From the NCBI GenBank assembly GCA_028554795.2, contig CM068842.1, positions 25,888,590 to 25,952,589 of the forward strand: a DNA stretch of 64,000 nucleotides, in the 5' to 3' direction. The translations under genes and the position numbers were made by a program. This DNA is from Sinohyriopsis cumingii. Its lineage: Eukaryota; Mollusca; Bivalvia; Unionida; Unionidae. Shown piece by piece: positions 19,799-40,395 of this stretch (positions are counted from its first letter, which is position 1; each line of letters opens with the position of its first letter). The notes under the pieces were generated by a model. That model searched no databases and was not told the DNA's origin. It saw only the letters and a list, made by a program, of their open reading frames with translations.

Positions 19799-20152
19799 AG
19801 TAGTGAAGGGGGACACTTTACGGACAATGGGAATTAGCATTAAAAACACCCTTGGGACACTTTACGGACAATGGAAATTTAACATGGAGAAAAATCGTGG
19901 GACACTTTACGGACAAGGGGAATTAACATGGGAATAAAATCGTGGGACACTCTACGGACAAGGGGAATTAACATGGGAATAAATCGTGGGATACTATACG
20001 TACAAGGGGAATTTAACATGGGATTTTTTTTTTTTTAAAAAGTTTTTTTTTTAAAATTTAAATTTAAATTTAAATTTAAAAAAGGGGTAGGCAATTCAAA
20101 GACTATCTCTTTTCGAGAAATATGGCTGGCCCTGAAAAGGGCCTTTGGGTTT
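19799..20152 (+). repeat. Left terminal inverted repeat (354 bp)
   Basis: Matches the reverse complement of 40042-40395 with about one substitution (T10-A4 versus T11-A3). From the end inwards it holds five iterons of about 44-45 bp starting at 19810, 19854, 19899, 19944 and 19988 (GGGACACTTTACGGACAA type), T-rich and AAATTT-rich blocks, then a histone-type stem-loop with its downstream element read on the minus strand. Confidence 0.97.
20123..20149 (-). promoter_or_regulatory. Histone-type 3' stem-loop ending the 20169-20540 gene (in the left TIR)
   Basis: On the minus strand the 16-nt core at 20128-20143 reads GGCCCTTTTCAGGGCC, a perfect 6-bp stem and 4-nt loop matching the metazoan replication-dependent histone consensus. 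It has CCCAAA upstream, AGCCA downstream, and a CGAAAAGAGATAG block about 14 nt further on that resembles the U7-binding element. The stop codon is 25 nt upstream. No AATAAA is seen between stop and TIR. Confidence 0.85.
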
Positions 20153-20168
20153 TCTTCTTCTTCTACTT

Positions 20169-20540
20169 CTAATTTCTCCTTTTCCTCCACCAACTTCTTA
20201 TTTTATCTCCAACACTCTTTCTCTTCTTTTTTTTCTCCTCCTCTTCTTCTTTCTTCTCTTCTTTCTTCCTCTTCTCATTTTCTTCTTCTTTTTCAATTTT
20301 TTCGTTCCATGTTCTTATTCTTATCTTTTCCTCTTCATCCTCCTTCTCCTCCTTTATTTCCTTCATCACACCACTAATCATGTCCTTTGCTTTTCTTAAG
20401 TTGTTAATTTCCATTTTTACTCTATGCGGACTATAAGAATAGTGGTCTTCAACGAGTCGTACGAGCATTTGTTCTATCATGCCCAAATTGTCAAGGACGT
20501 CTTGCAATGATTGAAACTTATCCAGGTGGTTTGAAGCCAT
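20169..20540 (-). CDS. Lysine/glutamate-rich small protein, histone-stem-loop gene 1
   Basis: 123 residues, not recognised. Residues 1-60 form a likely amphipathic helix region (H-L-D-K-F-Q-S-L-Q start). Residues about 62-108 are an extremely charged K/E coiled-coil-like tract, and the C-terminus is basic with W-W-R-K-R-R. It is the first of three tandem cassettes with a shared promoter sequence, a short ORF and a histone-type 3' end. The pattern L-x-K-x-x-x-L-x-x-x-L near the N-terminus recurs in the next two genes, suggesting distant paralogy. A TATA-like GTATAAGAAC at about 20581-20590 lies 42-50 nt upstream of this ATG. A nuclear, DNA- or chromatin-related role is only inference from charge and mRNA type. 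Confidence 0.7.
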   Translation of the reverse strand: MASNHLDKFQSLQDVLDNLGMIEQMLVRLVEDHYSYSPHRVKMEINNLRKAKDMISGVMKEIKEEKEDEEEKIRIRTWNEKIEKEEENEKRKKEEKKEEEEEKKKKRKSVGDKIRSWWRKRRN

Positions 20541-20580
20541 CTTCTATGTAGAATGGTTTGAACGACGAATACTGTGGGTT

Positions 20581-20688
20581 CTTATACTTAAAGCGCGTAC
20601 GTGAAGGAAAACATCCCCCTAAAAACATACAATGGATCTTACCTAGATCATGACCAAACAACGCGCGGACGTGAAGGAAAACATCCCC
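20581..20688 (-). promoter_or_regulatory. Promoter region of histone-stem-loop gene 1
   Basis: TATA-like GTATAAGAAC (minus strand) is preceded by GCGC and the repeated 26-bp element at 20593-20618 and again at 20663-20688 (core GTCCGCGC with GGATGTTTTCC, minus strand). Between the copies lies a GATCTTACCTAGATC near-palindrome. The same arrangement recurs upstream of genes 2 and 3. Confidence 0.65.
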
Positions 20689-20912
20689 CTACTTTTTCAT
20701 TTCATATAATATAACCCAAACTATACTCTTCACATTTGCTAAGAAACAATAAAGAAACCCATAATCTACTATTCTCACAAACATACCTTTACTCTTACTA
20801 ACACTAACACACAAACACATACTCTCACATTTTTATAAAAGAGTTAGTGTTTATATTCACACTACTCTACCTACACATTGGCAAATTGATGGTTATTTCT
20901 TTTCTTGAGTAT

Positions 20913-20938
20913 TGGGTAGCCCTGAAAAGGGCTGTTTT
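20913..20938 (-). promoter_or_regulatory. Histone-type 3' stem-loop ending the 20961-21317 gene
   Basis: Minus-strand core at 20918-20933 reads AGCCCTTTTCAGGGCT, followed by the canonical ACCCA cleavage-side flank. CAAGAAAAGA about 10 nt further on closely resembles a U7-binding downstream element. It lies 27 nt after the stop codon. Confidence 0.88.
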
Positions 20939-20960
20939 TTTAAACTTCAGAGACCCCTGG

Positions 20961-21317
20961 TTAATGGTGGCACCTTCCGGGTCTGGCACCACAGACACAA
21001 CGTCTACTCCAATCATTAGTCCAATTCACATGACTTGTTTGAAGAGCAGACGGTGGGTGAGTGGCTTCACTATCCCACTCCTCCGTTTGCGGAATAGTGA
21101 ACACTTCTTCTTCCCTCTGTCTTCTTTGTCTTTGTCTTTGTTGTGATTGTGGTTCAGCTCTCTTTCTTTCATTCTCTTCTTTCATTTTTCTCTCCTTCTC
21201 CTCCTGTTCTATTCTCACTTCTTCCACAAGGGCCTCCGCAGTCAGCTCGTTCAGTAGGTATCTGGCATACTCCAGATGCATCTGAAGTTCCATCAATTTA
21301 GTCAGTCTTCTGCTCAT
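20961..21317 (-). CDS. Small charged protein, histone-stem-loop gene 2
   Basis: 118 residues, family not recognised. The N-terminal 35 residues are helical and leucine-rich (L-T-K-L-M-E-L then L-L-N-E-L). Residues 36-70 are E/K/R/Q-rich and coiled-coil-like. The C-terminal third is Ser/Thr/Trp-containing and ends with a Cys-rich R-C-V-C-G-A tail. The cassette (promoter, ORF, 3' end) is homologous in its non-coding parts to gene 3: the 3' regions at 20841-20940 and 21702-21802 are nearly identical, while the proteins have diverged strongly. TATAAAT (minus strand, about 21369-21375) precedes the ATG by about 52 nt. Confidence 0.7.
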   Translation of the reverse strand: MSRRLTKLMELQMHLEYARYLLNELTAEALVEEVRIEQEEKERKMKEENERKRAEPQSQQRQRQRRQREEEVFTIPQTEEWDSEATHPPSALQTSHVNWTNDWSRRCVCGARPGRCHH

Positions 21318-21368
21318 TTTTACTGTTGATCAATCAACATGGGTAGCTGGACTGCCGAACAAGTTTCA

Positions 21369-21480
21369 ATTTATACTGAAAGCGCGGACGTGATGGAAAA
21401 CATCCCTAATAACATAAAATTGATCTTACCTAGATCATGAACAAAAAATAAAACAACAACGCGCGGACCTAAAAGAAACA
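21369..21480 (-). promoter_or_regulatory. Promoter region of histone-stem-loop gene 2
   Basis: Minus-strand TATAAAT box, then the GCGC/ACGTC/GGATGTTTTCC element at 21382-21407, the GATCTTACCTAGATC near-palindrome at about 21422-21436, and a degenerate second GCGCGGAC copy at about 21461. Confidence 0.65.
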
Positions 21481-21774
21481 CTCACTCACTTTTTTATGCT
21501 ACCCATCAATATTTTAAAATTTTTATAAATCACTTCAATAGACTATCCACATACGCAAAGCAATCCAATCTAACCCAAAATATATACCTCTAACAGCCAA
21601 AAAAAACTAACATCATTTTAATCTACTATCCACACCAACCTATTTTATCACTTACAAACACAAACACACAAACTCATACCCTCACATTTTTTTTAAGAAA
21701 GAGTTAGTGTTTATTTTCACACTACTCTACCTACACACATTGGCAAATGGATCGTTATTTCTTTTCTAGAGTAT

Positions 21775-21800
21775 TGGGTAGCCCTGAAAAGGGCTGTTTT
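21775..21800 (-). promoter_or_regulatory. Histone-type 3' stem-loop ending the 21831-22205 gene
   Basis: Minus-strand core AGCCCTTTTCAGGGCT at 21780-21795, with ACCCA flank and a following TAGAAAAGA purine block, 35 nt after the stop. An AATAAA (minus strand, 21710-21715) about 65 nt downstream could be a backup poly(A) signal, as in some histone genes. Confidence 0.86.
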
Positions 21801-21830
21801 TTGTTTTGCTATGGCATTCTTTTTTAGTTT

Positions 21831-21946
21831 CTAAGAATGCGATGTCCTCTGAGGATACTTTCTGGCAATAGGTCTGCTTCTTCGGAAAGAGAAGAAGAAT
21901 TCTTTGGTGTCGATACGACAATCGACAAAGCCTCTGTCAGCTTCAG

Positions 21947-21977
<31 letters not shown>

Positions 21978-22205
21978 TTGCTGCTGTCTCTGAAGTCTGT
22001 ACTTCTCTGTCCATTCTTCTTTCTCCTTGTTCATTTCTTCTCTGAAGAGCTCTTCTATCAGGTCTTCAGTGATTTTTAACATTCTCACATTCTCTATTTC
22101 TTCTGGCTTCGGTATCAGACTGTGTCTGACCCTATGCAAATTCACGTAGGCTTCGTTGAGCTTAGCTAGTTTGGAGCACATCTTCTTAGGATGATGAGTC
22201 GACAA
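21831..22205 (-). CDS. Small polyglutamine-containing protein, histone-stem-loop gene 3
   Basis: 124 residues, not recognised. The N-terminal half is helical (S-K-L-A-K-L-N-E-A then K-I-T-E-D-L-I-E-E-L-F). A pure glutamine tract of about 13 residues sits near residues 74-86, and the C-terminus is Arg/Phe/Ser-rich. The CAG/CAA-type tract may be length-variable. Third tandem cassette; promoter element at 22247-22272 with TTTAAG/TTAAGAAC in place of a clear TATA box. Confidence 0.68.
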
Positions 22206-22230: not shown

Positions 22231-22272
22231 GGTTCTTAAAGTTAAAGCGCGGACGTGAAGGAAAACATCCCC
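22231..22272 (-). promoter_or_regulatory. Promoter element of histone-stem-loop gene 3
   Basis: The single copy of the shared 26-bp element (22247-22272) next to TTAACTTTAAGAACC (minus strand). The second copy and near-palindrome seen in the other two cassettes are missing. Confidence 0.55.
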
Positions 22273-22510: not shown

Positions 22511-23071
22511 CTACTTTAAACAAGGCTGACAACGTTGTGAATGAAATTGTGATTTCCACTGTTGGAAATCATTAGGCCATTGATGGACACTACGTTTCCT
22601 AGCTTGAGACAAAAGATAAGCATAATGGTCACAAAACCATCGATCTACTTTCACATCGTTTCTAGCAGAAGAACGAGGATCAAAATGAGTCACTAAATGT
22701 TCTAAGGAATAGCCCAGGCTGCGATGATGCAGAAAATACACACAGTACTGTCCACACACCAAGGAATCTGTGCCTTGTAATTTCACGTTATTGAATCGGG
22801 TGGTTTGAGCATTTCTTCTCATAAAGTCGATGATATCGTCTTCCAAAGGGGGCAATCCGTACGAATCGAAATATTCCACACATCCTTCTTGAGGAAAGTA
22901 GACGGCTACCCAGTGGGTTCCTGGGAGATGACTTTCGTCCGTGTTGATCACGTAAGCTTGATGGTCTTTAGGTTTGCGATGAGGGAGTTCATCTTTAGCA
23001 CAGACGACAGGATTCCAAGAAGCCGTATACGAACTATGGTTCAAAAGGTAATAAAGTTCCCAGGTATCCAT
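22511..23071 (-). CDS. Adenain-like cysteine protease (virion maturation)
   Basis: 186 residues, matching the size of adenovirus/Polinton C5-family proteases. The catalytic set is visible in order: His53 (G-T-H-W), Asp69 (Y-F-D-S-Y-G), Gln99 for the oxyanion hole and Cys106 (V-C-G-Q-Y-C); the Gln-to-Cys spacing of seven fits the family. The enzyme cleaves capsid precursor proteins at Gly-Gly/Gly-x-Gly type sites during particle maturation. Likely substrates here are the pVI- and pX-like proteins, which contain G-H-G-L-G and R-G-G motifs. It is the last gene of a tightly packed minus-strand block. All residues expected for activity are present. Confidence 0.93.
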   Translation of the reverse strand: MDTWELYYLLNHSSYTASWNPVVCAKDELPHRKPKDHQAYVINTDESHLPGTHWVAVYFPQEGCVEYFDSYGLPPLEDDIIDFMRRNAQTTRFNNVKLQGTDSLVCGQYCVYFLHHRSLGYSLEHLVTHFDPRSSARNDVKVDRWFCDHYAYLLSQARKRSVHQWPNDFQQWKSQFHSQRCQPCLK

Positions 23072-23602: not shown

Positions 23603-24928
23603 CTAGTAATCTAGAATGACTTCTCTCAAACTGTTGATTTCTATCGTATTGTCAAATTCTGCATACAGGATCACGTTCAACGTTGGATCAGCAGGGTCTC
23701 GATTTGCAAACTGAATTTCCACACGAATCTGGCCAGATTTTATAGGGTGGAAATGTCCCTCGTCGCTGCCTTGGTCTGGAGTGAAATCGAAAGCCCACAA
23801 AGCGTAGCCTCCTGCATAATCTTCGTACGTAATACCGTGACTGGTATTGGTTCCTAACTGTCCGGTGGCTTCGTACAGGGACAAGTACGATCTCAAGTAA
23901 TTGTTCTGGGCAAAGTTAGGCTCAAAGGGTCGTGTACACAAGGTCTTGCCGTCACGACTGACTTCGATTTTGGACACGCTAGAGTGTCGAAACTCAAAAG
24001 GATTTTCGTTGTGAAGTCCATTGAAAGCTGAATTCCTGACGATACCAACGATCAAACGCTTGGGTAACTGTCCTTGGAACAGATGATCTTCGATCATGGA
24101 TCGCTGTCCAACAGGAATGGTGAACGTTTTCACTTCCACACGTCGTATGGGATACTTGGCGGTCGTTCTGCTCAACGTCTGACTGATGTCGTTTCCCACT
24201 TTAGGTAACACTTCCACACGGCGTACGTAAAGTCTGGCTTCTTGGATAACAGTTTTGTATTCGTTGGCATGGTCCATCAAATGGAAAGCGGCACTGCTAC
24301 GATTCAGTCTCAGGCGAATATCAACTCCGTTCAGTAAATACTTTTCTTGTAACCACATGTCCAAATGCAAACGATCCATCAGTTCTAAACTACGTCCTTG
24401 CAAAATTTTAGTTCTACGTGTGTTAAACCCCACATTGTGAGGATTGTCATCTTCTGTCAGGGCTGTGTCGCTAAACGTGCCTGCACCTGCCGTGTCAGGT
24501 TTCCATACCACGCAAGCATCCAGATGAGTATTCTTGGCTTCTTTTCCGTAGGTCAAGAGATTTTCCAAGTAGGCACGATATGGGTAAGTATCCATGCTGC
24601 TGCTGACCAGTTTGTTATTCAAGTACAAGTCCACTTCGCTGAACAAGGAATGCATGAAATTGTTGACGGGCGCTACCCTATCATTGGCTCCAGGATTGGT
24701 GTTGTCAGTTTTGATCACTTTGACTTTCAAATACAGGTAACTGCTATTCAGATCGATGTAATCTTCGGGTTGTCCTTTGATTTCGAACTCGATGGGAGCG
24801 GAATCCGTCAAAGAGGAGACGGGATGAAATTCCACCCACTGGGATTCTTGCATCGTCATCATGGTGGGGGGCATGGCAAACATATCCAGTTCCGTCTTGG
24901 AACAAGCACATGACTCTCGGTGCATCAT
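23603..24928 (-). CDS. Double-jelly-roll major capsid protein (hexon-like)
   Basis: 441 residues, intact. The N-terminal segment (W-V-E-F-H-P, then P-I-E-F-E-I-K-G, then D-L-N-S-S-Y-L-Y-L-K-V) is the characteristic opening of the Polinton/adintovirus double-jelly-roll capsid protein, and beta-rich sequence continues throughout. Trimers of this protein form the hexagonal capsomers of an icosahedral particle in relatives. Two in-line Met codons at the start make the exact first residue uncertain. It is separated by 13 nt from the pVI-like gene and by 5 nt from the gene after it, which leaves no room for separate promoters outside coding DNA. Confidence 0.92.
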   Translation of the reverse strand: MMHRESCACSKTELDMFAMPPTMMTMQESQWVEFHPVSSLTDSAPIEFEIKGQPEDYIDLNSSYLYLKVKVIKTDNTNPGANDRVAPVNNFMHSLFSEVDLYLNNKLVSSSMDTYPYRAYLENLLTYGKEAKNTHLDACVVWKPDTAGAGTFSDTALTEDDNPHNVGFNTRRTKILQGRSLELMDRLHLDMWLQEKYLLNGVDIRLRLNRSSAAFHLMDHANEYKTVIQEARLYVRRVEVLPKVGNDISQTLSRTTAKYPIRRVEVKTFTIPVGQRSMIEDHLFQGQLPKRLIVGIVRNSAFNGLHNENPFEFRHSSVSKIEVSRDGKTLCTRPFEPNFAQNNYLRSYLSLYEATGQLGTNTSHGITYEDYAGGYALWAFDFTPDQGSDEGHFHPIKSGQIRVEIQFANRDPADPTLNVILYAEFDNTIEINSLREVILDY

Positions 24929-26295: not shown

Positions 26296-26705
26296 AATTC
26301 CAGAGTTCTGTGGCTGTCCGAGGGGTTAGTGGATGTCAGAGGCGTGTCTCCGTCCAAAATGGGGTTCTGGTTGTGGTTGTGGTTGGAGTGGTGACTGGCA
26401 CTGGCACTGGACACAACGTTCCCGTTCGAGGAGAATTTCAGGGAGGGATTGGGAAGCAGGTAACCGATGCAACTGCTCAATAAAATGGTCCACAATTGTT
26501 TGTCTCCTTGTTGCAAACTCAAATTGGCGATGGCTGCCCCGATGACACAATACACCACGAAGATTTGGCAGAAAAAGACGATTTGCGTTTTAGGCACACG
26601 TTCTCCACACCACACCCACAAGGGTTGTTTTTGTAAATCTTGCACAGAAGAACTAGGGGAAGAAGGAGTGGTCGACGTAGCTGCGTCTGCTGTGTGAAAG
26701 GGCAT
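26292..26705 (-). CDS. Two-helix membrane protein of the Polinton core set
   Basis: 137 residues from the ATG at 26705; the longer frame starts with GTG and is not preferred. Hydrophobic segments at about 42-62 and 70-85, with a conserved loop (N-L-S-L-Q-Q then L-W-T-I-L-L-S-S-C-I-G-Y-L-L-P-N-P), are typical of a short membrane protein beside the penton gene in animal Polintons. Both ends are Ser/Thr/His/Asn-rich and probably disordered. It may sit in an internal or cellular membrane during assembly or entry; that is inference. Confidence 0.75.
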   Translation of the reverse strand: MPFHTADAATSTTPSSPSSSVQDLQKQPLWVWCGERVPKTQIVFFCQIFVVYCVIGAAIANLSLQQGDKQLWTILLSSCIGYLLPNPSLKFSSNGNVVSSASASHHSNHNHNQNPILDGDTPLTSTNPSDSHRTLEL

Positions 26706-26710
26706 GATGG

Positions 26711-27823
26711 TCACTTCTTCTTTTTATAGTCGATGACTTGCGAAGCGTCGATCCAAGAATCGAAACTGGGTGGATATCCTTTCCAACGTACTTTGACTTC
26801 TTTGACACGTCGTTTGCCCACTTTACGGGTTCTGCGTTCGAGAATGCTTTCGATGTCGTACACGTCGTCTTCTTTTTTGGTGACACGTTGTAACTCGGGC
26901 AAATAAAACGTTCCTTTGAGTACTTCTCCGTTCATGTCTTCCAATTTATAGACGGCAGGATGACGGCCATGCACTCGTCCAGTGACGCGAAACAATTCGG
27001 TCGTCCAGTTAGGTAAGTAACCTTTGTCGAAAGTGCGTTTGGTTTTGCCAATGCGCACCCAATCTCCTACGGTCAACTCTCCACTTTTCTTGGGGACAGC
27101 CCTCGTCGGGGACGTACCAAACAGACGCTCAAACACCAGCACTTCGTTGTCGGGAGTCACTTCTTGCGGGGCACGTCCGATGCTTCGATGGTAAGATTGG
27201 TTGTACGCTTGCACCAGGTGCGGTAAGATGTCGATGTACTTCAGAGTGTGGTGATGCGTAAAATATTTCCACATGCGTTCTTTCAAAGTACGTTGAAAAC
27301 GTTCCACGATGCTGGCTTTGGTTTCGGGATTCTCGGTGGTAAAAAAATGAATGTCACGTTTCTTTAATTCTTTTTGGAAAGCTTGGTTCAGAAATTCGGT
27401 GCCTTTGTCCGTTTGCCATCGAAGAGGGCGACGACCGCTTTGTTTCAACACCCGTTGCAGGGCTCGCACTAACTCGCTGCTCGATTTGGAAGTCAAGGGC
27501 ACGACCCAGGCAAATTTGGAAAAGACGTCGATGACACAAAACAAATATTTGTAGCCGCGATTGTAGCTGGCCAAATGAGAGACATCGGCTAAATCGGCTT
27601 GCCATTGATGATCGATGCCTTCCACTCGGGTGCGACTTCTGGCAAACTTGCGTCGAATGGGTTTGTGTAAAGTGTAGGTAGCTTGTTCTTGTAACCATCG
27701 TTGCACTTGAGGTAAACGGAGACTTTTCAGTCGAGTTTTGGCAGCACGATACAATTTTTGAACTCCTGCGTAACCTGCAGGATGCGAGGGATCGTAGTAA
27801 ATGCTGGCTAAGACTTTTTCCAT
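26711..27823 (-). CDS. Retroviral-type integrase (rve) with C-terminal chromodomain
   Basis: 370 residues. The DDE catalytic triad is complete: Asp77 (W-Q-A-D), Asp139 (Q-T-D-K-G-T-E-F) and Glu174 (S-I-V-E-R-F-Q), with 34 residues between the last two. A clear chromodomain lies near residues 308-365 (Y-D-I-E-S-I-L, K-V-R-W-K-G-Y, S-W-I-D). No obvious HHCC zinc finger is seen at the N-terminus. The enzyme joins element ends to target DNA with a 6-bp stagger, in agreement with the TAGGAG duplication. The chromodomain suggests targeting to methylated histones. Confidence 0.95.
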   Translation of the reverse strand: MEKVLASIYYDPSHPAGYAGVQKLYRAAKTRLKSLRLPQVQRWLQEQATYTLHKPIRRKFARSRTRVEGIDHQWQADLADVSHLASYNRGYKYLFCVIDVFSKFAWVVPLTSKSSSELVRALQRVLKQSGRRPLRWQTDKGTEFLNQAFQKELKKRDIHFFTTENPETKASIVERFQRTLKERMWKYFTHHHTLKYIDILPHLVQAYNQSYHRSIGRAPQEVTPDNEVLVFERLFGTSPTRAVPKKSGELTVGDWVRIGKTKRTFDKGYLPNWTTELFRVTGRVHGRHPAVYKLEDMNGEVLKGTFYLPELQRVTKKEDDVYDIESILERRTRKVGKRRVKEVKVRWKGYPPSFDSWIDASQVIDYKKKK

Positions 27824-30243: not shown

Positions 30244-30987
30244 TCATGGAGAGTGAAATGAAGTCGAGGACGGAGACGTGTACAGGACAGGCCCTCCGTC
30301 TTGGCACCAGTGGTGAAACATGTGGGTACGAAATCGCAAATCCTCGGGGGTCGTAGGTTTCAAATCGACGAGTAAATAGGCGTGTGGCGTTTGAGTGGCA
30401 TCGTCGTACGCCTGAGTCAGCCAAGGCGTTCCTAACTGTTTGGCTAAGACTTGCACTTGCGATTTATCTCGAGGACTTTTAAACAAGACCACGTAATGCG
30501 CATTGAGACTGATGGTGCGATGGGCTTTACTTTGTTGAAACAAATTTTGGGTGATGTAAACGACACTGGCATTACGGTGATGCCCTTTGCGCGTAAACCA
30601 CAATTTAATTTCTTCTTCGTCTTCTCCTAACATGTCGTCGAAAATGACCAAATGGGTTAGACGGGAGTCAGAGACGATGCCATCGTCTTCTTTAGGAATG
30701 CCTTCCACAAACACGATGGAATCGCCTTGACTTTCTCGCAAGAGGCTGTACGCCGATTGCCACTCTTTGTAACACCACACGATCCGTTGAGGGGGTCGAT
30801 CGATCAAATGATGTTTATGTTCGATCAAACGTTTGACGAATTCGGTTTTGCCTGAACCGCTAGGTCCAGCAATGAGCATGTTAAAGGGATGGCGAAGATA
30901 CAAAGCCTCCCAACTGGCACGATCTAAGTGTTCGTCGATGACTTTGACAGTAGAGGAAGAGGGAGCAGAGACAGCAGAGGTAGCCAT
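30244..30987 (-). CDS. FtsK/HerA-type genome-packaging ATPase
   Basis: 247 residues from the ATG at 30987, which has a strong context (CACACCATGG). The longer frame begins with TTG, and TATATAAA at 31035-31042 (minus strand) puts the cap site near 31010. Walker A is A-G-P-S-G-S-G-K-T, Walker B L-V-I-F-D-D, and a T-Q-N sensor follows a G-H-H-R segment. This is the packaging motor of Polintons and adintoviruses. Sequence and length differ from the ATPase at 404-1078, confirming two separate elements in the window. Confidence 0.93.
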   Translation of the reverse strand: MATSAVSAPSSSTVKVIDEHLDRASWEALYLRHPFNMLIAGPSGSGKTEFVKRLIEHKHHLIDRPPQRIVWCYKEWQSAYSLLRESQGDSIVFVEGIPKEDDGIVSDSRLTHLVIFDDMLGEDEEEIKLWFTRKGHHRNASVVYITQNLFQQSKAHRTISLNAHYVVLFKSPRDKSQVQVLAKQLGTPWLTQAYDDATQTPHAYLLVDLKPTTPEDLRFRTHMFHHWCQDGGPVLYTSPSSTSFHSP

Positions 30988-31620: not shown

Positions 31621-31835
31621 GGAGGTGGTAAGTACTGATCGTAAAGAGTCCACAAGGAATCGGCTGGTAAACGAAATCCCAGAAAACAAGTCACTAAGAC
31701 ACACACCACTTGTCGTCCAAAATTGAATGGATACAGTTCTTGTAATAATTGATGGTAATGATCCACGGTTTGAATATGGTCATTGAGTTCCTTCCACGGA
31801 ATCTGTTGGATGACATGTGACATAAACCGTGGCAT
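31611..31835 (-). CDS. Small accessory ORF, unknown
   Basis: 74 residues. Contains W-K-E-L-N-D-H, a hydrophobic patch V-V-C-V-L-V-T-C-F-L-G-F at about residues 42-53, and a Pro-Trp end. It overlaps the end of the gene upstream by 56 nt. TATAAAAAC (minus strand, about 31844-31852) lies only about 10 nt ahead of the ATG, so initiation at the ATG near 31823 is possible. Confidence 0.4.
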   Translation of the reverse strand: MPRFMSHVIQQIPWKELNDHIQTVDHYHQLLQELYPFNFGRQVVCVLVTCFLGFRLPADSLWTLYDQYLPPPWP

Positions 31836-32298
31836 GGCAGCCTGTTTTTATATTCTCTTTTTTTCGGATGCAATAGACGTACTTTCTAGCCAGAGATCTT
31901 CGTTCTCCAGTAGGGAATCTAAATCTTGCATACTGTAACCGAGACGTTAGAGTTCGTTTAGGTGTTTCCTCTTCCTCTAAGTAGATTCCACGTAAAATAT
32001 GTTGGTAATCCTTTAACTTGTCTTCCTCAATGCATTGCACTAGGTGAATCTCGAAGTAACCATAATCATGAACATGTCGATCATTAGCGACCTCAAAGTT
32101 TTGAACAATGTCTGACCATTGAAAGAATTTCTGACGAATCAGTTCTCTTATACCCTTCAGGTACCAGTGGTTAAAGATCTGGTGACGTATCGGATGCAAT
32201 TGTTCTTTACGTTTCACTTGTATTTTGACCAGCTCTCGGTAAATGCGTTCTCTCAACTCCACAGGCAAAGCACGAATGTTCTCTTGTAAAGTATCCAT
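31780..32298 (-). CDS. Tandem-duplicated accessory gene B (F-box-like N-terminus)
   Basis: 172 residues. The first 39 residues, including L-P-V-E-L-R-E-R-I-Y-R-E-L, are identical to those of the next gene upstream, and the underlying DNA is near-identical for about 140 bp. The rest is homologous but diverged (H-W-Y-L-K, F-x-W-x-D-I). The short leucine-rich motif resembles the start of an F-box, which would recruit ubiquitin ligase; the match is brief and uncertain. The duplication looks recent or maintained by gene conversion at the 5' end. Confidence 0.6.
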   Translation of the reverse strand: MDTLQENIRALPVELRERIYRELVKIQVKRKEQLHPIRHQIFNHWYLKGIRELIRQKFFQWSDIVQNFEVANDRHVHDYGYFEIHLVQCIEEDKLKDYQHILRGIYLEEEETPKRTLTSRLQYARFRFPTGERRSLARKYVYCIRKKENIKTGCHATVYVTCHPTDSVEGTQ

Positions 32299-32310: not shown

Positions 32311-32766
32311 CTAAATCCTCTTTGGTCTGACACAAGAAATGTACTCTTTGCACAAACATGGTTTCACTTCAGTGTCGAATTTAAATCGTTGAGTCACTAA
32401 TCTACACATTACAATTCGTTCAGAAGTTTCCTCTTTCACCAAGTTGACATTGTGTTCAAGATGTTGGTAATTCGTTAACTCTTCCTCTGGAATTCGATGC
32501 AGTACGTTTACAATGTAGTAGATAGAATCGTCAATACCAAACCATTCCTTTTTATAACCAGGAGGTCGTTGATCAATGTCTGTCCAATGGAACACTTTCA
32601 ATTGAATCAGTCCTTGTATAGCCTTCAGGTACCAGTGGTTCAAACACCGGTGACGTATCGGATGCAATTGTTCTTTACGTTTCACTTGTATTTTGACCAG
32701 CTCTCGGTAAATGCGTTCTCTCAACTCCACAGGCAAAGCACGAATGTTCTCTTGTAAAGTATCCAT
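32311..32766 (-). CDS. Tandem-duplicated accessory gene A (F-box-like N-terminus)
   Basis: 151 residues; partner of the 31780-32298 gene, with the same 39 first residues and about 35-40% identity by eye in the remainder. The period of the duplication is 468 bp. A conserved C-terminal pattern (C-K-E-Y-I-S-C-V-R-P-K versus A-R-K-Y-V-Y-C-I-R-K-K) suggests a folded domain. Not assigned to a family. Confidence 0.6.
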   Translation of the reverse strand: MDTLQENIRALPVELRERIYRELVKIQVKRKEQLHPIRHRCLNHWYLKAIQGLIQLKVFHWTDIDQRPPGYKKEWFGIDDSIYYIVNVLHRIPEEELTNYQHLEHNVNLVKEETSERIVMCRLVTQRFKFDTEVKPCLCKEYISCVRPKRI

Positions 32767-32794: not shown

Positions 32795-33532
32795 TCAATG
32801 TCTCGGTCCCACTAAGGGTAAGTAATGACAATTCGGTGACCATCGAGCATGTTCAACGAAGGCCGAATCTTGCGGTTCCCAGTGGTGAAGTGACACACCG
32901 CAACTGAAGCACTTGACTTTATCTCCTTCGCCCAAGTAGAAAAATCCGGCTCTGGCTAATTCTTCGGGGGTCGGTCCTCCCAGATACTTTGGCCATTTTC
33001 CTTTGAACGATTGAAGACGATTTTCAAAGTCGCAGTATTCCGACAAACGCACAGGAAACGAATATTCGTTTTTCACAGGTTCGTTTCGATGAGGGTTGGG
33101 TGACAGGAACAGGAGTTTGCTCAGGGCTGGATGACATCCGTAGGGGGGTAGACGTGAAGGTGAACATTCCCCTTTAAACCCGGTAAAATGTCTAAGAGGA
33201 CGAGCGGCATCGCTTTCGCATCCCTCAGGTTTGACACGCACAGCATCACTTTCCATGACAGGGGTAGTGAGAACAAAGTTCCCATGATGCTTTACGGCAT
33301 CGCTCAGGTCACAACGTACAGCATCGGTCCCATCGCAAGGCTCACAATCGCACTCGTCTGCAAACTCCGTTACGCAATTACAATGGTAACCACATGGACA
33401 ATCGCAGTTTCCTTCCGGACATTTTCCGTCGCAATGCATGGGTCTTATCCATCCAGTATTAGTCACACTAGAGGAAGATACAACTTTTTTACAATCCCCA
33501 AACTGAAACGATGTCTTTTTCAAAGTATTCAT
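32795..33532 (-). CDS. BIR-domain protein with Cys-rich N-terminus (inhibitor-of-apoptosis type)
   Basis: 245 residues. Residues about 33-66 hold a dense cysteine cluster (C-D-G-K-C-P, C-D-C-P-C-G). The C-terminal 90 residues form a canonical BIR domain: R-L-Q-S-F, W-P, L-A-R-A-G-F-F-Y-L-G, then C-F-S-C, 16 residues, H, six residues, C. BIR proteins bind caspases or signalling adaptors and block host cell death; no RING finger is present. TATAAAAAA at about 33588-33596 (minus strand) supports its own promoter. Likely captured from a host, since bivalve and insect genomes have many BIR genes. Confidence 0.88.
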   Translation of the reverse strand: MNTLKKTSFQFGDCKKVVSSSSVTNTGWIRPMHCDGKCPEGNCDCPCGYHCNCVTEFADECDCEPCDGTDAVRCDLSDAVKHHGNFVLTTPVMESDAVRVKPEGCESDAARPLRHFTGFKGECSPSRLPPYGCHPALSKLLFLSPNPHRNEPVKNEYSFPVRLSEYCDFENRLQSFKGKWPKYLGGPTPEELARAGFFYLGEGDKVKCFSCGVSLHHWEPQDSAFVEHARWSPNCHYLPLVGPRH

Positions 33533-33591: not shown

Positions 33592-34050
33592 TTATACTAG
33601 TCTCAATGCAGTCTCCAACTTGTACATCTTTCCTTTTTTACGTTTTTTATGTCCTGTTCTGGAAGGTACCGTCTCTAAGGTACCGTCAACATTGTACCGT
33701 AGTGCGATGGGTGGAAAGGCCATAGAAAGGTAAGGGCAGTTCAGAGACCATCGAGTATGCTCCAGAATAGCTGAATCTTTATAGATACATAGATCCATTC
33801 GTAACTTCAGTCCGCAAGCGAAACACTGTACCTCGTATCCCAATCCTGACTCAGGTCCCAAGTAGACAAATCCTGTTCTAGCTAAAACATGCGAAGAAGG
33901 TAATCCTTCCCTATCCGTAGGCCATTTCTGAAACGTGTCCAATCGACGGGCACAATCACAATAGTCAGGTAAGAAGACTGGAAAATGGTAGGGTTTGAAC
34001 TTGGAGTTCTCATCGGGTTTCTCACTCGATTCTTGCTGTGGCGAAGTCAT
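33592..34050 (-). CDS. Second, divergent BIR-domain protein
   Basis: 152 residues with one BIR domain at about residues 22-108. The zinc ligands are C76, C79, H98 and C105. The gap between C79 and H98 is two residues longer than the usual 16, and the conserved Trp in that loop is missing, so ligand binding may differ from the neighbouring BIR gene. The tail is basic (K-K-R-K-K-G-K). The two BIR genes share gene order and likely arose by duplication followed by divergence. It lies 23 nt after the polymerase gene. Confidence 0.85.
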   Translation of the reverse strand: MTSPQQESSEKPDENSKFKPYHFPVFLPDYCDCARRLDTFQKWPTDREGLPSSHVLARTGFVYLGPESGLGYEVQCFACGLKLRMDLCIYKDSAILEHTRWSLNCPYLSMAFPPIALRYNVDGTLETVPSRTGHKKRKKGKMYKLETALRLV

Positions 34051-34073: not shown

Positions 34074-37000
34074 TTACAACCAATGTTTTATACCAACGTG
34101 TCCATACGGTAAGGTGAAATGATTGGGAAGTCGAACTCGCTTCTGGTACACGATTTGATAAACTTTTTCCAAAGGTCGACTGACGATGTGGTGAGTGGGT
34201 AAACGTACAATCTTGTTCGGTTGGTAAGTGGTCACTTTAAAGTTTCCATCCTCTCCCGATTGCAAGGCTTCTTTCAATACCCCAAAGTTGACCACACGAC
34301 TGGTACGATAATTCAGAGTCAGTCCTTTCACTTTGCACGTCGTGTGCACTTCTCCTTGTTTGTCCCGGTATTCGTAGCCGTAATTTTTGGGACCGCCACT
34401 GACAAAACTTAGAATCTTGTCGTCGGGATGCTCGTCTGTCCAGGCTCCTAAACGGTCTCCTTCGATGTCAGGGTGATGTTGAATTGGGTGATGGATGTAA
34501 ATGCAACTGTCCGTGTCAAAGTACAGGACGCGTTCTTCTAACAGTTCTAAAGCTTCGTACAATTTTAAGCGAGCATGGGCTGTCACGTAAGCCGCAATGA
34601 TGACATTTCCAAAAGGGTCGTCTTGTACAAAGTCCAGATCTTCTTCGTAATTGACCAAGATCAAATTCTCTCGAACGACGTCCACGTGTTTCATGTATTT
34701 GGTTTTGTCGTGAATCATCTGGAAGTAGCGGGAAGGTTCTGTCAAATATTCCGTCTTGGGTAAACACGGTCGTTGTGCCATTTTACCCCACAAGCAATTT
34801 AACATCACTTTGGCAAACGATCGCCTGCCTTCGTTTTTCTCGATGTGGTCCAAAGTGATGCCTTCTTGTTCGTAGTATTTCTCTTTGAATTGTATTTGGT
34901 CTTCGGGAGTATGACACCAGGAAGGATAGCCGCTGGCTTCTTGCTTCAGTTTCAAAAAGGCATCCACGTAGTCGGCGAAAATGCCTTTCTGACTGGGATC
35001 ACCCTTGCGGTACTGTTGTGTCTTGGGAAAGTGGCAAATCTCGTATACTTCTAACAGTTCGTATCCCATGTCCAGAGCTTTGAACAATTCTACGCTGACC
35101 CAGGTTCCCGTCAAGGCCCGTTCTTCCTGGCTGTGATGACAAGGTTGGTCTTGGTTGCACGTTTCGGCACAAGTACGGCACAATGGAAACATCAGTTTGC
35201 CTTGACAATGGTGAGGTAAGACGGGATGGTAGAGGTTCGTGGGAGGCAAAACTTTACACTTGATCAAGCCTTCGTATTGTCGAATGTTTTTCAGGTCGAT
35301 GTGTTCCGTCAGCAATTGCGGGTGCCCTACAGGAAAGCGACAATATTTGCACACGTAGGGATACAGCGAACACACGTCCAAGTATTTGATTTCTTCTCCT
35401 TTCTCTTCGTCGGCTTGGTACAGCAAACAGGTGGCATTGGTCCTTCCTCCGTACAAACTATCCCTCGGGTTCAGCGGGTCCATGAACTGGTAACTTTCCA
35501 CGAGGCGTTTAAACTCGGGATCGGTTTTGATACGGTGATCGTACTCGTGTTCCCACATTTCCACCACTTGGTATCCTTCCTGTTCTAACTTTAGGCGTCG
35601 CTGACAAGTGTCCTGGTACAAGTCTTCCATGGTTCGTTGCAAAAACTGATTTTTAGTGCCACGGTCAGGGTAACAAACAGGACATCCGTGAAATAAGCAA
35701 CCGTTAAACTCGTACACGATCTTGGGGTTTTCTAAGTCCCAGCCATCGACCGAATACGTTCCGATGGTCTTTTCGCCCCCTCCGTTGCGAGCATGCTGAA
35801 TCCACTTGTCTTCCTTGTCGCACAAGTAATGTAACCAACGTAGGGCTTTGACCGAGTATTGACGCTTGACAAAGTGGGTCGTTTGAGGACTGATGACAGC
35901 CACGGTGTTTTCAGGCATGAATCGTTGTCGATACACTAAGGAACACGCTTTGGCAATGGTGCAAGCTTCTTTCAAAGGATCGACCCCTCCGTGTTCCATG
36001 AACAGTTCTCGAAATTTTCCACAGCAACGTCGTAAAATGTCCACGTCGGAACGACAATACTTTAACATTTCTTCCTGAAAGTCGAAAGGGTCCGAGGCGT
36101 GAGCCTGGTACCAAGCGTAGAAAGCTTCTCGTTGTTCGGTACGCATGTTGTCGGGGTCGTAATAGTGAGCCTCGGGCAAATGGGGTAGAACGGCGTGTTG
36201 GTTGGCTTCCGTATTGAAAAAGTGTGGAAAGTACCCTTTAGCCATTTCTGTCATTCCAAACGTTTTAGGCATTCGACTCAAAGGCATAGCCAAGTAACTC
36301 ATCGAATCTTTAAACTGCACTTGTCCCACTTGCATGAAAATGATTTTGGCTCCGTTCAAAGTCACTTTAGGACGCTCGGTGCCTTGTTCCGTATAGTACC
36401 TCAAAAGAAACTGTCCATCGTATCCGGAGAAATTGTGAGCCATCACCGTGGCATGACGATGACAATCTCCGTAACGTTCGATGTCCTCTTGGCTCCACGT
36501 CTTGTCGACGGGGTCTAAGACCCATTGGGCAAAATCGGCTAACGTGTTTGGTCCCCGAAAGATTTTTTCACGCCCTCCGGGAATCTTGCTGCAGTGAGGG
36601 CAATGACTGAAGATAGGTTCTTGAATGCACTTCTCGCACGCTCGATGAGCCACGCAGAAATTAGGAATGTGAATGCCAGTCTCTTGCATGCATTCGAAAT
36701 CGAAAAAGATGAAATTGCCTTTCTTCTTGTGACCGTCCTCTTTCTCTGGTGGGGGTTGGTATTTCTGCACGTAACATTGGTGTTCCAAGTCCACGATGTG
36801 GTGACAAATGTGACATTTTTTCTTTCCTGAACATACGTGTGCCTTGGTATTATTGGTACGTATGACTTGTTCACACGTAGAGCACAATCTCAGCAGTTGA
36901 CAAGCGCATTTCTTCTGTGAACCTTGCGTTTTCAGATGTTGTTGGTAACAGGCAGGGCTGACAAACGTGCGCAGACAAGTGGAACAAGGCACTGGTTCTT

Positions 37001-38111
37001 CGCTCAGACAGGGTGAAGAGGCCAAACATCCTGTGCATTTCGATCCACAATGCTTGTGTTGCTCTCGATTGTTATAACCATGGTCACATTTCTCACAGTA
37101 ATAACCGTATTTCAGGAATCCGGTGATACTGGTAATGGTATCGAAATGTTCATCGTGATAATAGACATGAATGTATTTTCCGTCCTTAAAGTCTTGGCCT
37201 CGAAACAACAGAGGTCCGCGCACTTCTTGAGGGTGCACTTTCAAGGTGTAGCGTGGAGCTAGGGCATCTTGCAATTTTTGCATCTCAGGAATGCCACAGG
37301 GTGTGTCTTTGGACAGGCCAGCTTGTTGCAACAGGAGTTCTGCTTCGTTTCGTTGCTTGGCTCGATGGGAACGTTGAATAGTGTCCCAGGTTCTTTTCCA
37401 TTCTACCGTGTCGTTCTTGTTGGCATAGGTTCGTCCCACCACGATGGCACGGGCTAAGCACATCTGGTCATGAGGGTTGTCAATTCGGACGAGACTCTTT
37501 TTGGTGTTGCGAAGGTCGTCCACCAATAACATCTTTTTGCGTCCTGTCCCTTGAGGAGGAGAGACGTGGGTCATGTCCAGTGTGGCTTTACCATCGGTGA
37601 TGTCAAACTGATCATTAGATTGTTGTACGTGTTGAATCTTGTCCATGACTTTGGAAGCAGTCAATTCTGCAGGGGTGCTAAACTCGATCCAAACAGGGGA
37701 TTTCAAACCGTCGTGTTGTATGGAAAGTCTCAAGCGATCGTCTTCTTTGGGTTGACATTGTCGCTTAAGTGCAGTGAGCAGAGAATCCCACACTCCGGTG
37801 ATGAACCCTTCTGCTTTCTCTAACGGCACTTCGGCCTTGAAATCTTTAAACTTCACCGTGTATTTGTAAGCCGTGGTTCTAAATTTTCTAGAGGAGCGCT
37901 TTTCCGTCTCTCGAATGGAATAGTACTTTTCAGGGTTGACTAAGGGTGGTGAACTTGTTTTAGAGGGTTCGGATTCTGGTTCACTCATGTCCTCTTCAAA
38001 ATCACTGGCATGAATTTGTGCCAAGATTTCAGCCCTGGTACGAGGCGATAGATCACGTTTCTGCCTCTTACTTTCTTCTTCTTTCTTCTCGAATGAATGG
38101 GATCGTTTCAT
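34074..38111 (-). CDS. Protein-primed family B DNA polymerase
   Basis: 1345 residues, one uninterrupted frame. The basic N-terminus (K-R-Q-K-R near residue 15) may be a nuclear signal. A cysteine-rich zinc cluster spans about 340-450. The 3'-5' exonuclease has Exo I F-F-D-F-E near 470, Exo II N-F-S-G-Y-D near 562 and Exo III Y-C-R-S-D near 688. The polymerase has motif A D-V-C-S-L-Y-P near 914, motif B K-V-M-L-N-C-L-W-G near 1105, motif C D-T-D-S near 1200 and K-V-K-G near 1260. All catalytic residues are present. It replicates the linear element from its TIRs. The TATA box (CTATAAAG, minus strand, about 38160-38166) is 20 bp from that of the divergent gene. Confidence 0.96.
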   Translation of the reverse strand: MKRSHSFEKKEEESKRQKRDLSPRTRAEILAQIHASDFEEDMSEPESEPSKTSSPPLVNPEKYYSIRETEKRSSRKFRTTAYKYTVKFKDFKAEVPLEKAEGFITGVWDSLLTALKRQCQPKEDDRLRLSIQHDGLKSPVWIEFSTPAELTASKVMDKIQHVQQSNDQFDITDGKATLDMTHVSPPQGTGRKKMLLVDDLRNTKKSLVRIDNPHDQMCLARAIVVGRTYANKNDTVEWKRTWDTIQRSHRAKQRNEAELLLQQAGLSKDTPCGIPEMQKLQDALAPRYTLKVHPQEVRGPLLFRGQDFKDGKYIHVYYHDEHFDTITSITGFLKYGYYCEKCDHGYNNREQHKHCGSKCTGCLASSPCLSEEPVPCSTCLRTFVSPACYQQHLKTQGSQKKCACQLLRLCSTCEQVIRTNNTKAHVCSGKKKCHICHHIVDLEHQCYVQKYQPPPEKEDGHKKKGNFIFFDFECMQETGIHIPNFCVAHRACEKCIQEPIFSHCPHCSKIPGGREKIFRGPNTLADFAQWVLDPVDKTWSQEDIERYGDCHRHATVMAHNFSGYDGQFLLRYYTEQGTERPKVTLNGAKIIFMQVGQVQFKDSMSYLAMPLSRMPKTFGMTEMAKGYFPHFFNTEANQHAVLPHLPEAHYYDPDNMRTEQREAFYAWYQAHASDPFDFQEEMLKYCRSDVDILRRCCGKFRELFMEHGGVDPLKEACTIAKACSLVYRQRFMPENTVAVISPQTTHFVKRQYSVKALRWLHYLCDKEDKWIQHARNGGGEKTIGTYSVDGWDLENPKIVYEFNGCLFHGCPVCYPDRGTKNQFLQRTMEDLYQDTCQRRLKLEQEGYQVVEMWEHEYDHRIKTDPEFKRLVESYQFMDPLNPRDSLYGGRTNATCLLYQADEEKGEEIKYLDVCSLYPYVCKYCRFPVGHPQLLTEHIDLKNIRQYEGLIKCKVLPPTNLYHPVLPHHCQGKLMFPLCRTCAETCNQDQPCHHSQEERALTGTWVSVELFKALDMGYELLEVYEICHFPKTQQYRKGDPSQKGIFADYVDAFLKLKQEASGYPSWCHTPEDQIQFKEKYYEQEGITLDHIEKNEGRRSFAKVMLNCLWGKMAQRPCLPKTEYLTEPSRYFQMIHDKTKYMKHVDVVRENLILVNYEEDLDFVQDDPFGNVIIAAYVTAHARLKLYEALELLEERVLYFDTDSCIYIHHPIQHHPDIEGDRLGAWTDEHPDDKILSFVSGGPKNYGYEYRDKQGEVHTTCKVKGLTLNYRTSRVVNFGVLKEALQSGEDGNFKVTTYQPNKIVRLPTHHIVSRPLEKVYQIVYQKRVRLPNHFTLPYGHVGIKHWL

Positions 38112-38802: not shown

Positions 38803-38808
38803 AATAAA
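38803..38808 (+). terminator. Poly(A) signal of the zinc-knuckle gene
   Basis: AATAAA 87 nt after the stop codon. Shows conventional polyadenylation for this gene, in contrast to the stem-loop genes. Confidence 0.65.
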
Positions 38809-38959
38809 TGAATGATATAAGGTAAGAGTCTTTGAGTTTTGATTTTAAAATAAGAACCTACACTCACGCACTCATACACAGACACGTACTATAAGGGTAA
38901 CATGGGTGAGTTTTTTTGAGTTATTGGCAAATTGAAATTGTATTTCTTTTCGAGAAATG

Positions 38960-38985
38960 TGAGTGGCCCTGAAAAGGGCCTTTTT
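38960..38985 (-). promoter_or_regulatory. Histone-type 3' stem-loop ending the 39008-39577 gene
   Basis: Minus-strand core GGCCCTTTTCAGGGCC at 38965-38980, 27 nt after the stop, then ACTCA and a CGAAAAGAAATA purine block. The flank (ATTGGCAAATTGA on the plus strand near 38922-38936) matches the 3' regions of the left-end cassettes, so the whole 3' module is shared. Confidence 0.86.
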
Positions 38986-39007
38986 TCTTCATGGTGCAGG
39001 GGTGAGT

Positions 39008-39577
39008 TTAAGCAATCAATTTTAACTGCCTTAAGCCTTTGCCACGGCCAAGGCCTACTTCTGGACTGCGTAATGATGATAATGATTGGGTTGAAATCAC
39101 TAAGGGTGGTACGGTAGGCTTAGTCACAGGGTTGACGTGTTTAGCTCGGGAAGGTCGTATTCTCTTCGGTCGTGATAAAGAAGTCTGATACATTTGTTTC
39201 AGACTTCTTAACTCCGCTAAAATGTCCAACAGTACCGTGACCGTTTGATTTTCACCCTCTTGTTTCTTTGCTGCTGCTACTTCTTCTTGCTGTTGTTTTT
39301 TTCTTACCTCTTCTTCTTGCTGCTGTTGCTGTAGGAGAAAAGCCTGTTCCGCTTCCTTTTGTCGTTGTATAAATTTCTCCAATTCTTCTTTCTGTCTCTG
39401 TCTAAAATTCTCCACTTGCGGTAATGAAGAAGGTAACGAAGGTTCCGGAACAAATTCTTGCGAGGAGAGAAAATCCACAAAATCCCAATTCACCTCTTCT
39501 GAAAGTAAGTCCGGGTTCCCTTGGGCGGTCTCCCCTGCTGGTGCACCCCACTGGATCGTTTTCTGAGTTTCCGTCAT
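39008..39577 (-). CDS. Q/E-rich coiled-coil protein, histone-stem-loop gene 4
   Basis: 189 residues, not recognised. An acidic N-terminal part (N-W-D-F-V-D-F-L) looks like a short hydrophobic-acidic interaction or activation motif. A long Gln/Glu/Lys coiled coil follows at about residues 57-107, then a leucine-rich helix (V-L-L-D-I-L-A-E-L-R-S-L) and a basic C-terminus (R-P-K-R-I-R-P). The overall layout of helix, charged coil and basic tail resembles the three left-end stem-loop genes. A TATA-like box (minus strand, ATATAGATTC near 39622-39631) and a perfect CRE (TGACGTCA, 39639-39646) lie upstream. Confidence 0.7.
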   Translation of the reverse strand: MTETQKTIQWGAPAGETAQGNPDLLSEEVNWDFVDFLSSQEFVPEPSLPSSLPQVENFRQRQKEELEKFIQRQKEAEQAFLLQQQQQEEEVRKKQQQEEVAAAKKQEGENQTVTVLLDILAELRSLKQMYQTSLSRPKRIRPSRAKHVNPVTKPTVPPLVISTQSLSSLRSPEVGLGRGKGLRQLKLIA

Positions 39578-39621
39578 GTTGAATCACTATCGCATAGATT
39601 GACTGCACACAAGCGCTAGCG

Positions 39622-39757
39622 AATCTATATTGACTACGTGACGTCACAGACTGCTCTCTTCGGATTGGATGCGGGCTGACTGAATTCTGTAACGCGTGTT
39701 TGGATTGGTGAATGAACTCAATCCGTTTCAATCCTTTCTGTCCCTATAAATAAGCGC
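39622..39757. promoter_or_regulatory. Divergent promoter region with a CRE palindrome
   Basis: TGACGTCA at 39639-39646 sits between the leftward gene (start 39577) and the rightward gene. Its rightward TATA is CTATAAATAAG at about 39745-39755. A repeated GGATTGG/GATTGGTG CCAAT-type motif occurs at 39661-39667 and about 39702-39709. Confidence 0.6.
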
Positions 39758-39796
39758 CGTTCACTGCATTGATTCACCTATTCTCGGAGCCTCAAC

Positions 39797-40027
39797 ATGT
39801 GGACCGACGTTGAATCTTCAACCCTTGTGTCAACAATGATGTTCAGAACGGACATGCTCATGTATGTCCGATCCAAGTGGACCGTTGTCTACAGGACCAA
39901 CAGCAGCCTGTGGATAAGAAGAGTCTATATAGAGAGACAAGGTTGCCTCAAGAGGACTCTGATGTATGGTCCTGCTGTAAGACGAAGTTTGAGGAAAAGA
40001 AGATGTCGCAAATGCCCTCTATGTTAA
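39797..40027 (+). CDS. Small basic protein, histone-stem-loop gene 5
   Basis: 76 residues, not recognised. It starts about 50 nt after a good TATA box (CTATAAATAAG) and stops 23 nt before a histone-type stem-loop, so the unit has a complete promoter-ORF-3' end structure. The C-terminus is highly basic and Cys-rich (R-R-S-L-R-K-R-R-C-R-K-C-P-L-C). Possible DNA binding is inference. The ORF is short and could be partly coincidental, but the framing by regulatory signals supports it. Confidence 0.55.
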   Translation: MWTDVESSTLVSTMMFRTDMLMYVRSKWTVVYRTNSSLWIRRVYIERQGCLKRTLMYGPAVRRSLRKRRCRKCPLC

Positions 40028-40041
40028 GGGCATATTAACAT

Positions 40042-40395
40042 AAACCCAAAGGCCCTTTTCAGGGCCAGCCATATTTCTCGAAAAGAGATAGTCTTTGAAT
40101 TGCCTACCCCTTTTTTAAATTTAAATTTAAATTTAAATTTAAAAAAAAAAACTTTTTAAAAAAAAAAAAATCCCATGTTAAATTCCCCTTGTACGTATAG
40201 TATCCCACGATTTATTCCCATGTTAATTCCCCTTGTCCGTAGAGTGTCCCACGATTTTATTCCCATGTTAATTCCCCTTGTCCGTAAAGTGTCCCACGAT
40301 TTTTCTCCATGTTAAATTTCCATTGTCCGTAAAGTGTCCCAAGGGTGTTTTTAATGCTAATTCCCATTGTCCGTAAAGTGTCCCCCTTCACTACT
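40042..40395 (-). repeat. Right terminal inverted repeat (354 bp)
   Basis: Inverted partner of 19799-20152. It ends ...CCCTTCACTACT and is followed at once by the TAGGAG target duplicate. Its inner edge contains the plus-strand histone-type stem-loop that ends the last rightward gene. Confidence 0.97.
40045..40071 (+). promoter_or_regulatory. Histone-type 3' stem-loop ending the 39797-40027 gene (in the right TIR)
   Basis: Core GGCCCTTTTCAGGGCC at 40051-40066 with CCCAAA before and AGCCA after. CGAAAAGAGATAG begins about 12 nt downstream. It is the exact inverted twin of the left-TIR copy. Confidence 0.86.

Follow-up and report, generated by a model that had tools for sequence, protein, structure and literature searches.

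Why should genes of a mobile element end, and in part begin, in the manner of replication-dependent histone genes? The question is raised by a Polinton of 20,597 bp (19799..40395, as delimited by its pair of terminal inverted repeats (TIRs), its target site duplication (TSD) and its gene content), which lies in a 64,000-nucleotide stretch of the genome of the bivalve Sinohyriopsis cumingii (contig CM068842.1, positions 25,888,590 to 25,952,589), hereafter the window. An earlier examination of the letters without database searches, called here the sequence-only reading, had proposed that the element couples a subset of its genes to host DNA replication. The sequence side of that proposal is supported by our analysis: five genes carry 3' signals of the host histone type, since the hairpin and GAAAAG motif are shared with the host histone genes, three of the five also have histone promoter boxes, and these signals are kept in the sampled copies of the element. 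We consider it probable that the terminal genes are dressed as replication-dependent histone genes, and that the S-phase machinery of the host would make and time their mRNAs.

The five genes are the outermost ones of the element, with orfA, orfB and orfC at one end and orfD and orfE at the other. On the minus strand, orfA (20169..20540, 123 aa) is followed by the histone-type hairpin GGCCCTTTTCAGGGCC at 20128..20143 and by GAAAAG, the core of the histone downstream element, at 20109..20114. The next two genes on that strand, orfB (20961..21317, 118 aa) and orfC (21831..22181, 116 aa), both end in AGCCCTTTTCAGGGCT with an ACCCA flank (20918..20933 and 21780..21795, respectively), followed by GAAAAG at 20899..20904 and 21761..21766. 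At the other end, orfD (39008..39577, minus strand, 189 aa) has GGCCCTTTTCAGGGCC at 38965..38980 and GAAAAG at 38946..38951, and orfE (39797..40027, plus strand, 76 aa) has GGCCCTTTTCAGGGCC at 40051..40066 and GAAAAG at 40080..40085. The hairpins of orfA and orfE both lie within the TIRs and are therefore one sequence present twice. Pfam gave no match over cut-off for orfA, orfB and orfC and no match for orfE, and no histone domain was listed by the domain search for any of the five proteins.

The hairpins start 24 (orfE), 26 (orfA), 28 (orfB and orfD) and 36 nt (orfC) after the stop codon, and GAAAAG is found 13 nt past the stem in all five genes. The sequence-only reading had described five hairpin cores in gene orientation 23-35 nt after the stop codon, two of them with an ACCCA flank, and a GAAAAGA-type purine block about 10-15 nt downstream. 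The description proved accurate throughout: the coordinates of all five cores are exact with 0 mismatches, starts at +24 to +36 leave 23-35 nt in between, the loop is in the sense orientation in 5/5 cases, and ACCCA is directly 3' of the hairpin at orfB and orfC. With up to two mismatches allowed, the hairpin pattern has 5 matches in the window, versus a mean of 0.04 in 100 shuffles. The predicted fold of each of the five 60-nt stretches has the expected 6-bp stem and 4-nt loop, and three of the hairpins pass the gathering score of the Rfam Histone3 model (39.7, 35.6 and 35.6 bits).

For comparison we used the 2.9-Gb assembly of the host that contains the window. Its histone genes are organized in tandem units of about 8.3 kb that form long arrays on many contigs (C310, C531, C561 and others); 662 candidate stretches were found, 150 of which were scored. 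In one such unit, L245, which holds H3, H4, H2B, H2A and H1, every gene is closed by a hairpin that scores 35.0-39.4 bits against Histone3, above the gathering threshold, and starts 28-39 nt after the stop codon, with GAAAAG 13 nt past the stem in H3, H4 and H2B and 14 nt past it in H2A and H1. Judged by their sequences, the hairpin genes of the element closely resemble those of the host in stem, downstream element and spacing: the hairpin of 6-bp stem and 4-nt loop comes soon after the stop codon, and the purine element follows at a similar distance. They share the H2B/H1 promoter box at orfA-C and the H4 box at orfB as well. In contrast to the host genes, they belong to a mobile element and their proteins have no histone domain, the outer pair of the orfB and orfC stems is A-U, and orfD and orfE have a different, common promoter. 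It is established that SLBP reads the hairpin and the U7 snRNP the downstream element, and that histone mRNAs finish with the stem-loop and carry no poly(A) (PMC5636114, PMC12775136). In another bivalve, Lucina pectinata, every histone mRNA has the hairpin and some have purine-rich elements close by, according to a published survey (PMC6210712). The named relatives of the host H1 among the matches listed are molluscan, except for one in a metagenome-assembled genome (MAG) called Sedimenticola.

Beyond the purine element, about 35-45 nt 3' of each hairpin, we noticed a second conserved block, ATTTGCCAA in orfB, orfC and orfD or ATTGCCTA in orfA and orfE. The host H2A gene carries AATTTTGCCA at a similar place. 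This block might perhaps extend the pairing with U7 or serve as a DNA-binding site.

As read from sequence, the mimicry has a promoter part, which the sequence-only reading had missed and which covers orfA, orfB and orfC. The host H2B promoter contains GATGTTTTCCATCACGTCCGCGC, the H1 promoter has a form of it that differs at one place (C to A), and the H4 promoter contains TTTCTTTTAGGTCCGCGCG. Boxes of the H2B/H1 type, all on the minus strand, are present twice before orfA (20593..20615, with 1 substitution, and 20663..20685, exact), once before orfB (21382..21404, within 24 nt shared exactly with the host H2B promoter) and once before orfC (22247..22269, exact). An H4-type box, found before orfB only, is identical over 19 nt to the host H4 promoter (21460..21478, minus strand). 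With 5 changes allowed, the H2B/H1 box occurs in the whole window only before orfA-C, and 100 shuffles of the window yielded 8 matches in total. The longest word in common with the host histone promoters is 12 nt for orfA and 13 nt for orfC, in both cases inside a box that fits with 0-1 change, and for the 19 element genes without a hairpin it is 8-11 nt.

The stretch between orfD and orfE (39577-39797) appears as a divergent promoter common to both genes. It contains TGACGTCA, which we take to be CRE-like, together with what are presumably CCAAT boxes and a TATA element, and its layout, in our estimation, recalls the early promoters of adenoviruses and the H2A-H2B promoters of histone genes.

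The same signals are found throughout the host assembly. The hairpin together with its downstream element matched at 26,635 + 27,197 = 53,832 places and the promoter box at 15,081 + 15,477 = 30,558, versus 0 for either reversed pattern; these counts include the host histone genes that fit (H2B for the hairpin pattern, H2B and H1 for the box). Divided by five, the hairpin matches would be equivalent to some ten thousand elements, many of them probably fragmentary. The element family thus appears extremely abundant in this genome. All listed pattern places are on contig C1, where the arrangement seen in the window recurs, for example at 34139(-), 35031(-), 35846(-), 52508(-) and 53603(+). A Histone3 scan of the host genome gave 75 scored matches, and the eight loci fetched were all element copies, with no histone genes. 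Four other copies have TIRs of 94.6-99.4% identity and, as judged by eye, 6-bp duplications.

How well the signals are kept was assessed in 56 distinct ends of open reading frames (ORFs) from other copies, leaving out ends whose protein alignment stops >12 residues short of the C-terminus or that have <130 nt of following sequence. The 14-nt hairpin core is intact in 47 ends, with one change in 7, two in 1 and three in 1, and GAAAAG is kept in 54/56; as the loci were drawn via Histone3 matches or intact pattern matches, intact hairpins are over-represented in this sample. For 53 of the 56 ends, the hairpin is not the one that drew loci L158-L196; loci L197-L214 were also chosen from the listing of intact matches. 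The changes seen are each confined to single copies. In alignments of 6, 18, 11, 15 and 10 ends for orfA, orfB, orfC, orfD and orfE, window included, the mean pairwise column identity is 0.97-1.0 in the hairpin, 0.83-1.0 in the columns bearing GAAAAG and 0.73-0.91 in the coding stretch before the stop codon. Copies whose orfB protein is as low as 39% identical still have the hairpin. The sequence-only reading had named hairpins eroding like neutral sequence in related elements as evidence that would speak against it, and no such erosion is seen in these copies, sampled as they were through intact hairpins. When 18 hairpins of element and host are compared, both partners vary at 2/6 stem pairs (G-C/A-U and C-G/U-A), and pairing holds in 98.1% of the cells; two pairs with such double changes were reached in 29/500 shuffles, and the observed number of changed cells in none. 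As for the promoter boxes, they are present with up to 3 changes in 11 of 18 fetched regions of other copies, the 7 without them being right-end pieces that hold orfD and/or orfE.

Outside the host assembly, 20 proteins related to orfD were listed in public sets, with 60-95% identity across 24-100% of its length; none bears a function name. One of these, P0131, continues beyond the end of the orfD protein as SGPPTSLEKR, the residues that the hairpin arm and purine element of copy L199 give when translated; a related element with the same 3' end thus appears to be present in another data set. Viral contigs were searched with the capsid protein, a capsid alignment and an orfD alignment, with no relative found. 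Matches to the hairpin pattern in viral contigs (107 + 48 stretches) were set aside as chance or unrelated, since tblastn with six element proteins against the 155 loci gave no match.

Besides the manner in which the copies were sampled, several observations weigh against the interpretation proposed here. The sequence-only reading had suggested a covariance-model search of this and other Polintons. This search supports three of the window hairpins, but those of orfB and orfC, with their A-U outer pair, do not appear among the matches at the Rfam gathering score, and it found nothing in two distant Polinton pieces, L156 and L157, whose MAGs are recorded as bacterial (an Escarpia endosymbiont and Breoghania) and which are probably animal DNA. 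The capsids of these pieces are about 41% and 40-45% identical to that of the window. Neither piece has a Histone3 match at the gathering score or at E up to 1, a hairpin-like 16-mer or a relative of orfA-E, in sequence that extends 0.8 kb beyond the protease in L156, where the piece ends, and 5.2 kb in L157, not necessarily to the end of the element. Since no such hairpin is seen in the 5.2 kb of L157, the trait is not general to Polintons, and it is probably confined to one lineage of them. There are also deviations in the hairpins themselves: an A-C outer mismatch is found in 2 of the 18 compared, and the 3' flank is AGCCA in the TIRs of the window (orfA and orfE) and ACTCA at orfD instead of ACCCA. 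Conservation as high as around the hairpins is also seen in some other non-coding columns, such as +90..+150 after orfD (0.93) and the GCCAA block further downstream (0.81-1.0). A link to histone promoters was rejected for orfD and orfE, whose longest common word of 9 nt is no longer than those of other genes.

The polyadenylation signals add to these reservations. Within 300 nt after orfA, orfB, orfD and orfE there is no AATAAA or ATTAAA, but orfC has AATAAA at +116, past its hairpin, and the host H4 gene has it at +65 and +120, so that a poly(A) back-up is possible. For the 19 other element genes, the same 300-nt range holds a poly(A) signal in 5, including the protease (AATAAA at +116) and the zinc-knuckle gene (+87), and none in 14. 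Lack of a signal by itself therefore does not distinguish the hairpin genes, and it is by the hairpins, and by them only, that the terminal genes differ from the inner ones in the type of their 3' end. The host factors were also sought. For U7, Rfam gave a single sub-threshold match, which was rejected because it has no U7 features, and a pattern search gave 46 matches versus 70 for the reversed control, with no convincing U7 among the 20 of the 46 that were examined. For SLBP, an exon-by-exon search gave no match, and no positive control responded either. The RNA and cell-cycle side of the proposal, that is, non-polyadenylated ends, dependence on SLBP and U7 and restriction to S phase, is what we infer from the DNA.

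Other explanations of the same signals have to be weighed. We give practically no credence to the hairpins being chance matches or an artefact of assembly, given the genome matches in their tens of thousands with none for the reversed pattern, the repetition of the five-hairpin layout on C1 and the 6-bp duplications of four other copies. A chance origin is refuted by the window expectation of 0.04 and the 0 reversed-pattern matches. It is hardly more credible that the hairpins function at the DNA level, for example as TIR signals for replication or integration. Two of the five do lie in the TIRs, but three are outside them, the orientation of the loop follows the genes in 5/5 cases, and host histone genes end in the same elements with similar spacing. 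The signals could also be passive relics of histone DNA once captured from the host and now without function, and capture would indeed give two different histone promoters, of H2B/H1 and H4 type, copied with long exact identity. We nevertheless regard this as very improbable, since in the copies read, drawn via intact hairpins, conservation is higher in the hairpin columns than at the coding ends, the hairpins have outlasted the divergence of the orfB proteins, two stem pairs change on both sides, and left-end pieces of other copies retain the promoter boxes.

More serious, and yet in our view unlikely, is the possibility that the histone machinery does act on the hairpin and downstream element, but that these provide no more than a compact, directional 3' end, halting transcription before it enters the TIR or host DNA, with no useful link to S phase. 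The position of the orfA and orfE hairpins at the inner edge of the TIRs, where they end the two outward-reading genes, would suit such a role, as would the lack of a histone promoter box before orfD and orfE. However, a terminator has no need of the histone promoter boxes of orfA, orfB and orfC, and the hairpins of orfB, orfC and orfD do not adjoin the host flank.

If the terminal genes do pose as replication-dependent histone genes, their expression might proceed as follows. The host factor that acts on the H2B, H1 and H4 boxes would act on the promoters of orfA-C. SLBP and the U7 snRNP would act on the 3' signals, with CTAGAAAAGA and CTCGAAAAGA as candidates for pairing with U7, and the histone pathway would cleave the pre-mRNA a few nucleotides 3' of the hairpin, leaving no poly(A) tail. 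The mRNAs of the terminal genes would then be translated with the help of SLBP and be made and kept mainly in S phase. These genes would thus be expressed only in dividing cells, for example germ cells or cleaving embryos, while host replication is active. Presumably the inner genes for polymerase, capsid, integrase and protease use ordinary poly(A) ends, which is a guess, as a signal was found for only 5/19. It is tempting to speculate further that the whole element family poses as histone genes, that its terminal genes are read in, or in the manner of, the histone locus body, which would make the element follow the replication programme of the host, and that its signals compete for SLBP, the U7 snRNP and histone promoter factors, thereby loading the histone supply of the host. 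The reason for considering such competition is that tens of thousands of signal copies face far fewer histone genes, but we hold this extension to be tentative and rather doubtful.

Some viruses link their early genes to S phase via host-type promoters, as in the early regions of adenoviruses under E2F-type control, and the mRNAs of these genes are polyadenylated. The terminal position of the genes discussed here recalls the early regions at adenovirus ends, and like the latter, these early-type genes are plausibly tied to host replication. Unlike them, the element would use the histone pre-mRNA pathway itself. Histone biology has been borrowed by DNA viruses in another form, as exemplified by the histone H4 gene of bracoviruses. 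The Histoid gene of adomaviruses is a viral histone-like gene as well, according to the accessible part of its description (PMC11071296). In those viruses it is the protein that was borrowed, whereas the element in the window has the regulatory signals, on genes that do not code for histones.

To our knowledge, replication-dependent histone genes are regarded as the only users of histone pre-mRNA processing. A literature search, conducted largely outside subscription papers, retrieved no earlier account of histone-type 3' ends or histone promoters in a virus or mobile element. The parts are known; what is new, as far as the searches show, is that a mobile element has them together. If our interpretation is true, an element with both ends of the histone gene class would be the first outside user. 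It would also explain how a Polinton can time its early genes without regulators of its own. Moreover, the tens of thousands of histone-type signals constitute a natural test set for recognition by SLBP, U7 and histone promoter factors. They seem to outnumber the host histone genes, which suggests a conflict between element and host. The prediction for the 3' ends of the terminal genes is directly testable with total RNA of the host.

The identity of the element, for which the sequence-only reading had given a Polinton-like assignment, was settled by its ends and its core genes. The left TIR (19799..20152) and the right TIR (40042..40395) are 354 bp each and 100% complementary, with the hairpin and downstream element of orfA and of orfE, respectively, at their inner ends. 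They have the AG...CT ends that, together with a 6-bp TSD, are a hallmark of Polinton/Maverick elements; the TSD, TAGGAG, flanks the element at 19793-19798 and 40396-40401. As the TIRs are perfectly complementary and TAGGAG is present on both sides, this Polinton looks recently inserted.

The core genes are all on the minus strand. A DNA polymerase B of viral/organellar type (34074..38111; DNA_pol_B_2, E 3.8e-42), which has neither hairpin nor histone promoter box, an rve integrase with a chromodomain (26711..27823; rve, E 2.2e-14) and a packaging ATPase of the Pox_A32 type (30244..30987; E 1.3e-07, over cut-off) are each typical of Polintons. The protease (22511..23071) has a weak match to the adenovirus endoprotease (Peptidase_C5, E 0.013, below cut-off). 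For the capsid candidate (23603..24928), no Pfam family was over cut-off. Its structural model (pLDDT 77) matched the capsids of iridovirus, PBCV-1, Sputnik and mavirus in Foldseek (best E 9.2e-17, TM about 0.6), a fold comparison that identifies it as a major capsid protein of the double-jelly-roll type, again as in Polintons. Among the best 120 relatives listed for it, the named ones are mostly from bivalves, Mercenaria first, with one from a sea cucumber and one from a bacterial MAG. With its polymerase, integrase, ATPase and capsid genes, its TIRs, its 6-bp TSD and a size of about 20 kb, the element is like other Polintons/Mavericks, including adintoviruses, and is unlike them in the histone-type 3' ends and promoter boxes of its terminal genes.

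The element also encodes a zinc-knuckle protein and has two BIR genes, of the inhibitor-of-apoptosis type (32795-33532 and 33592-34050), which possibly have a role in cell survival during replication. The neighbouring genes at 31780-32298 and 32311-32766 are duplicates, with a stretch of 209 nt that is 89% identical between them.

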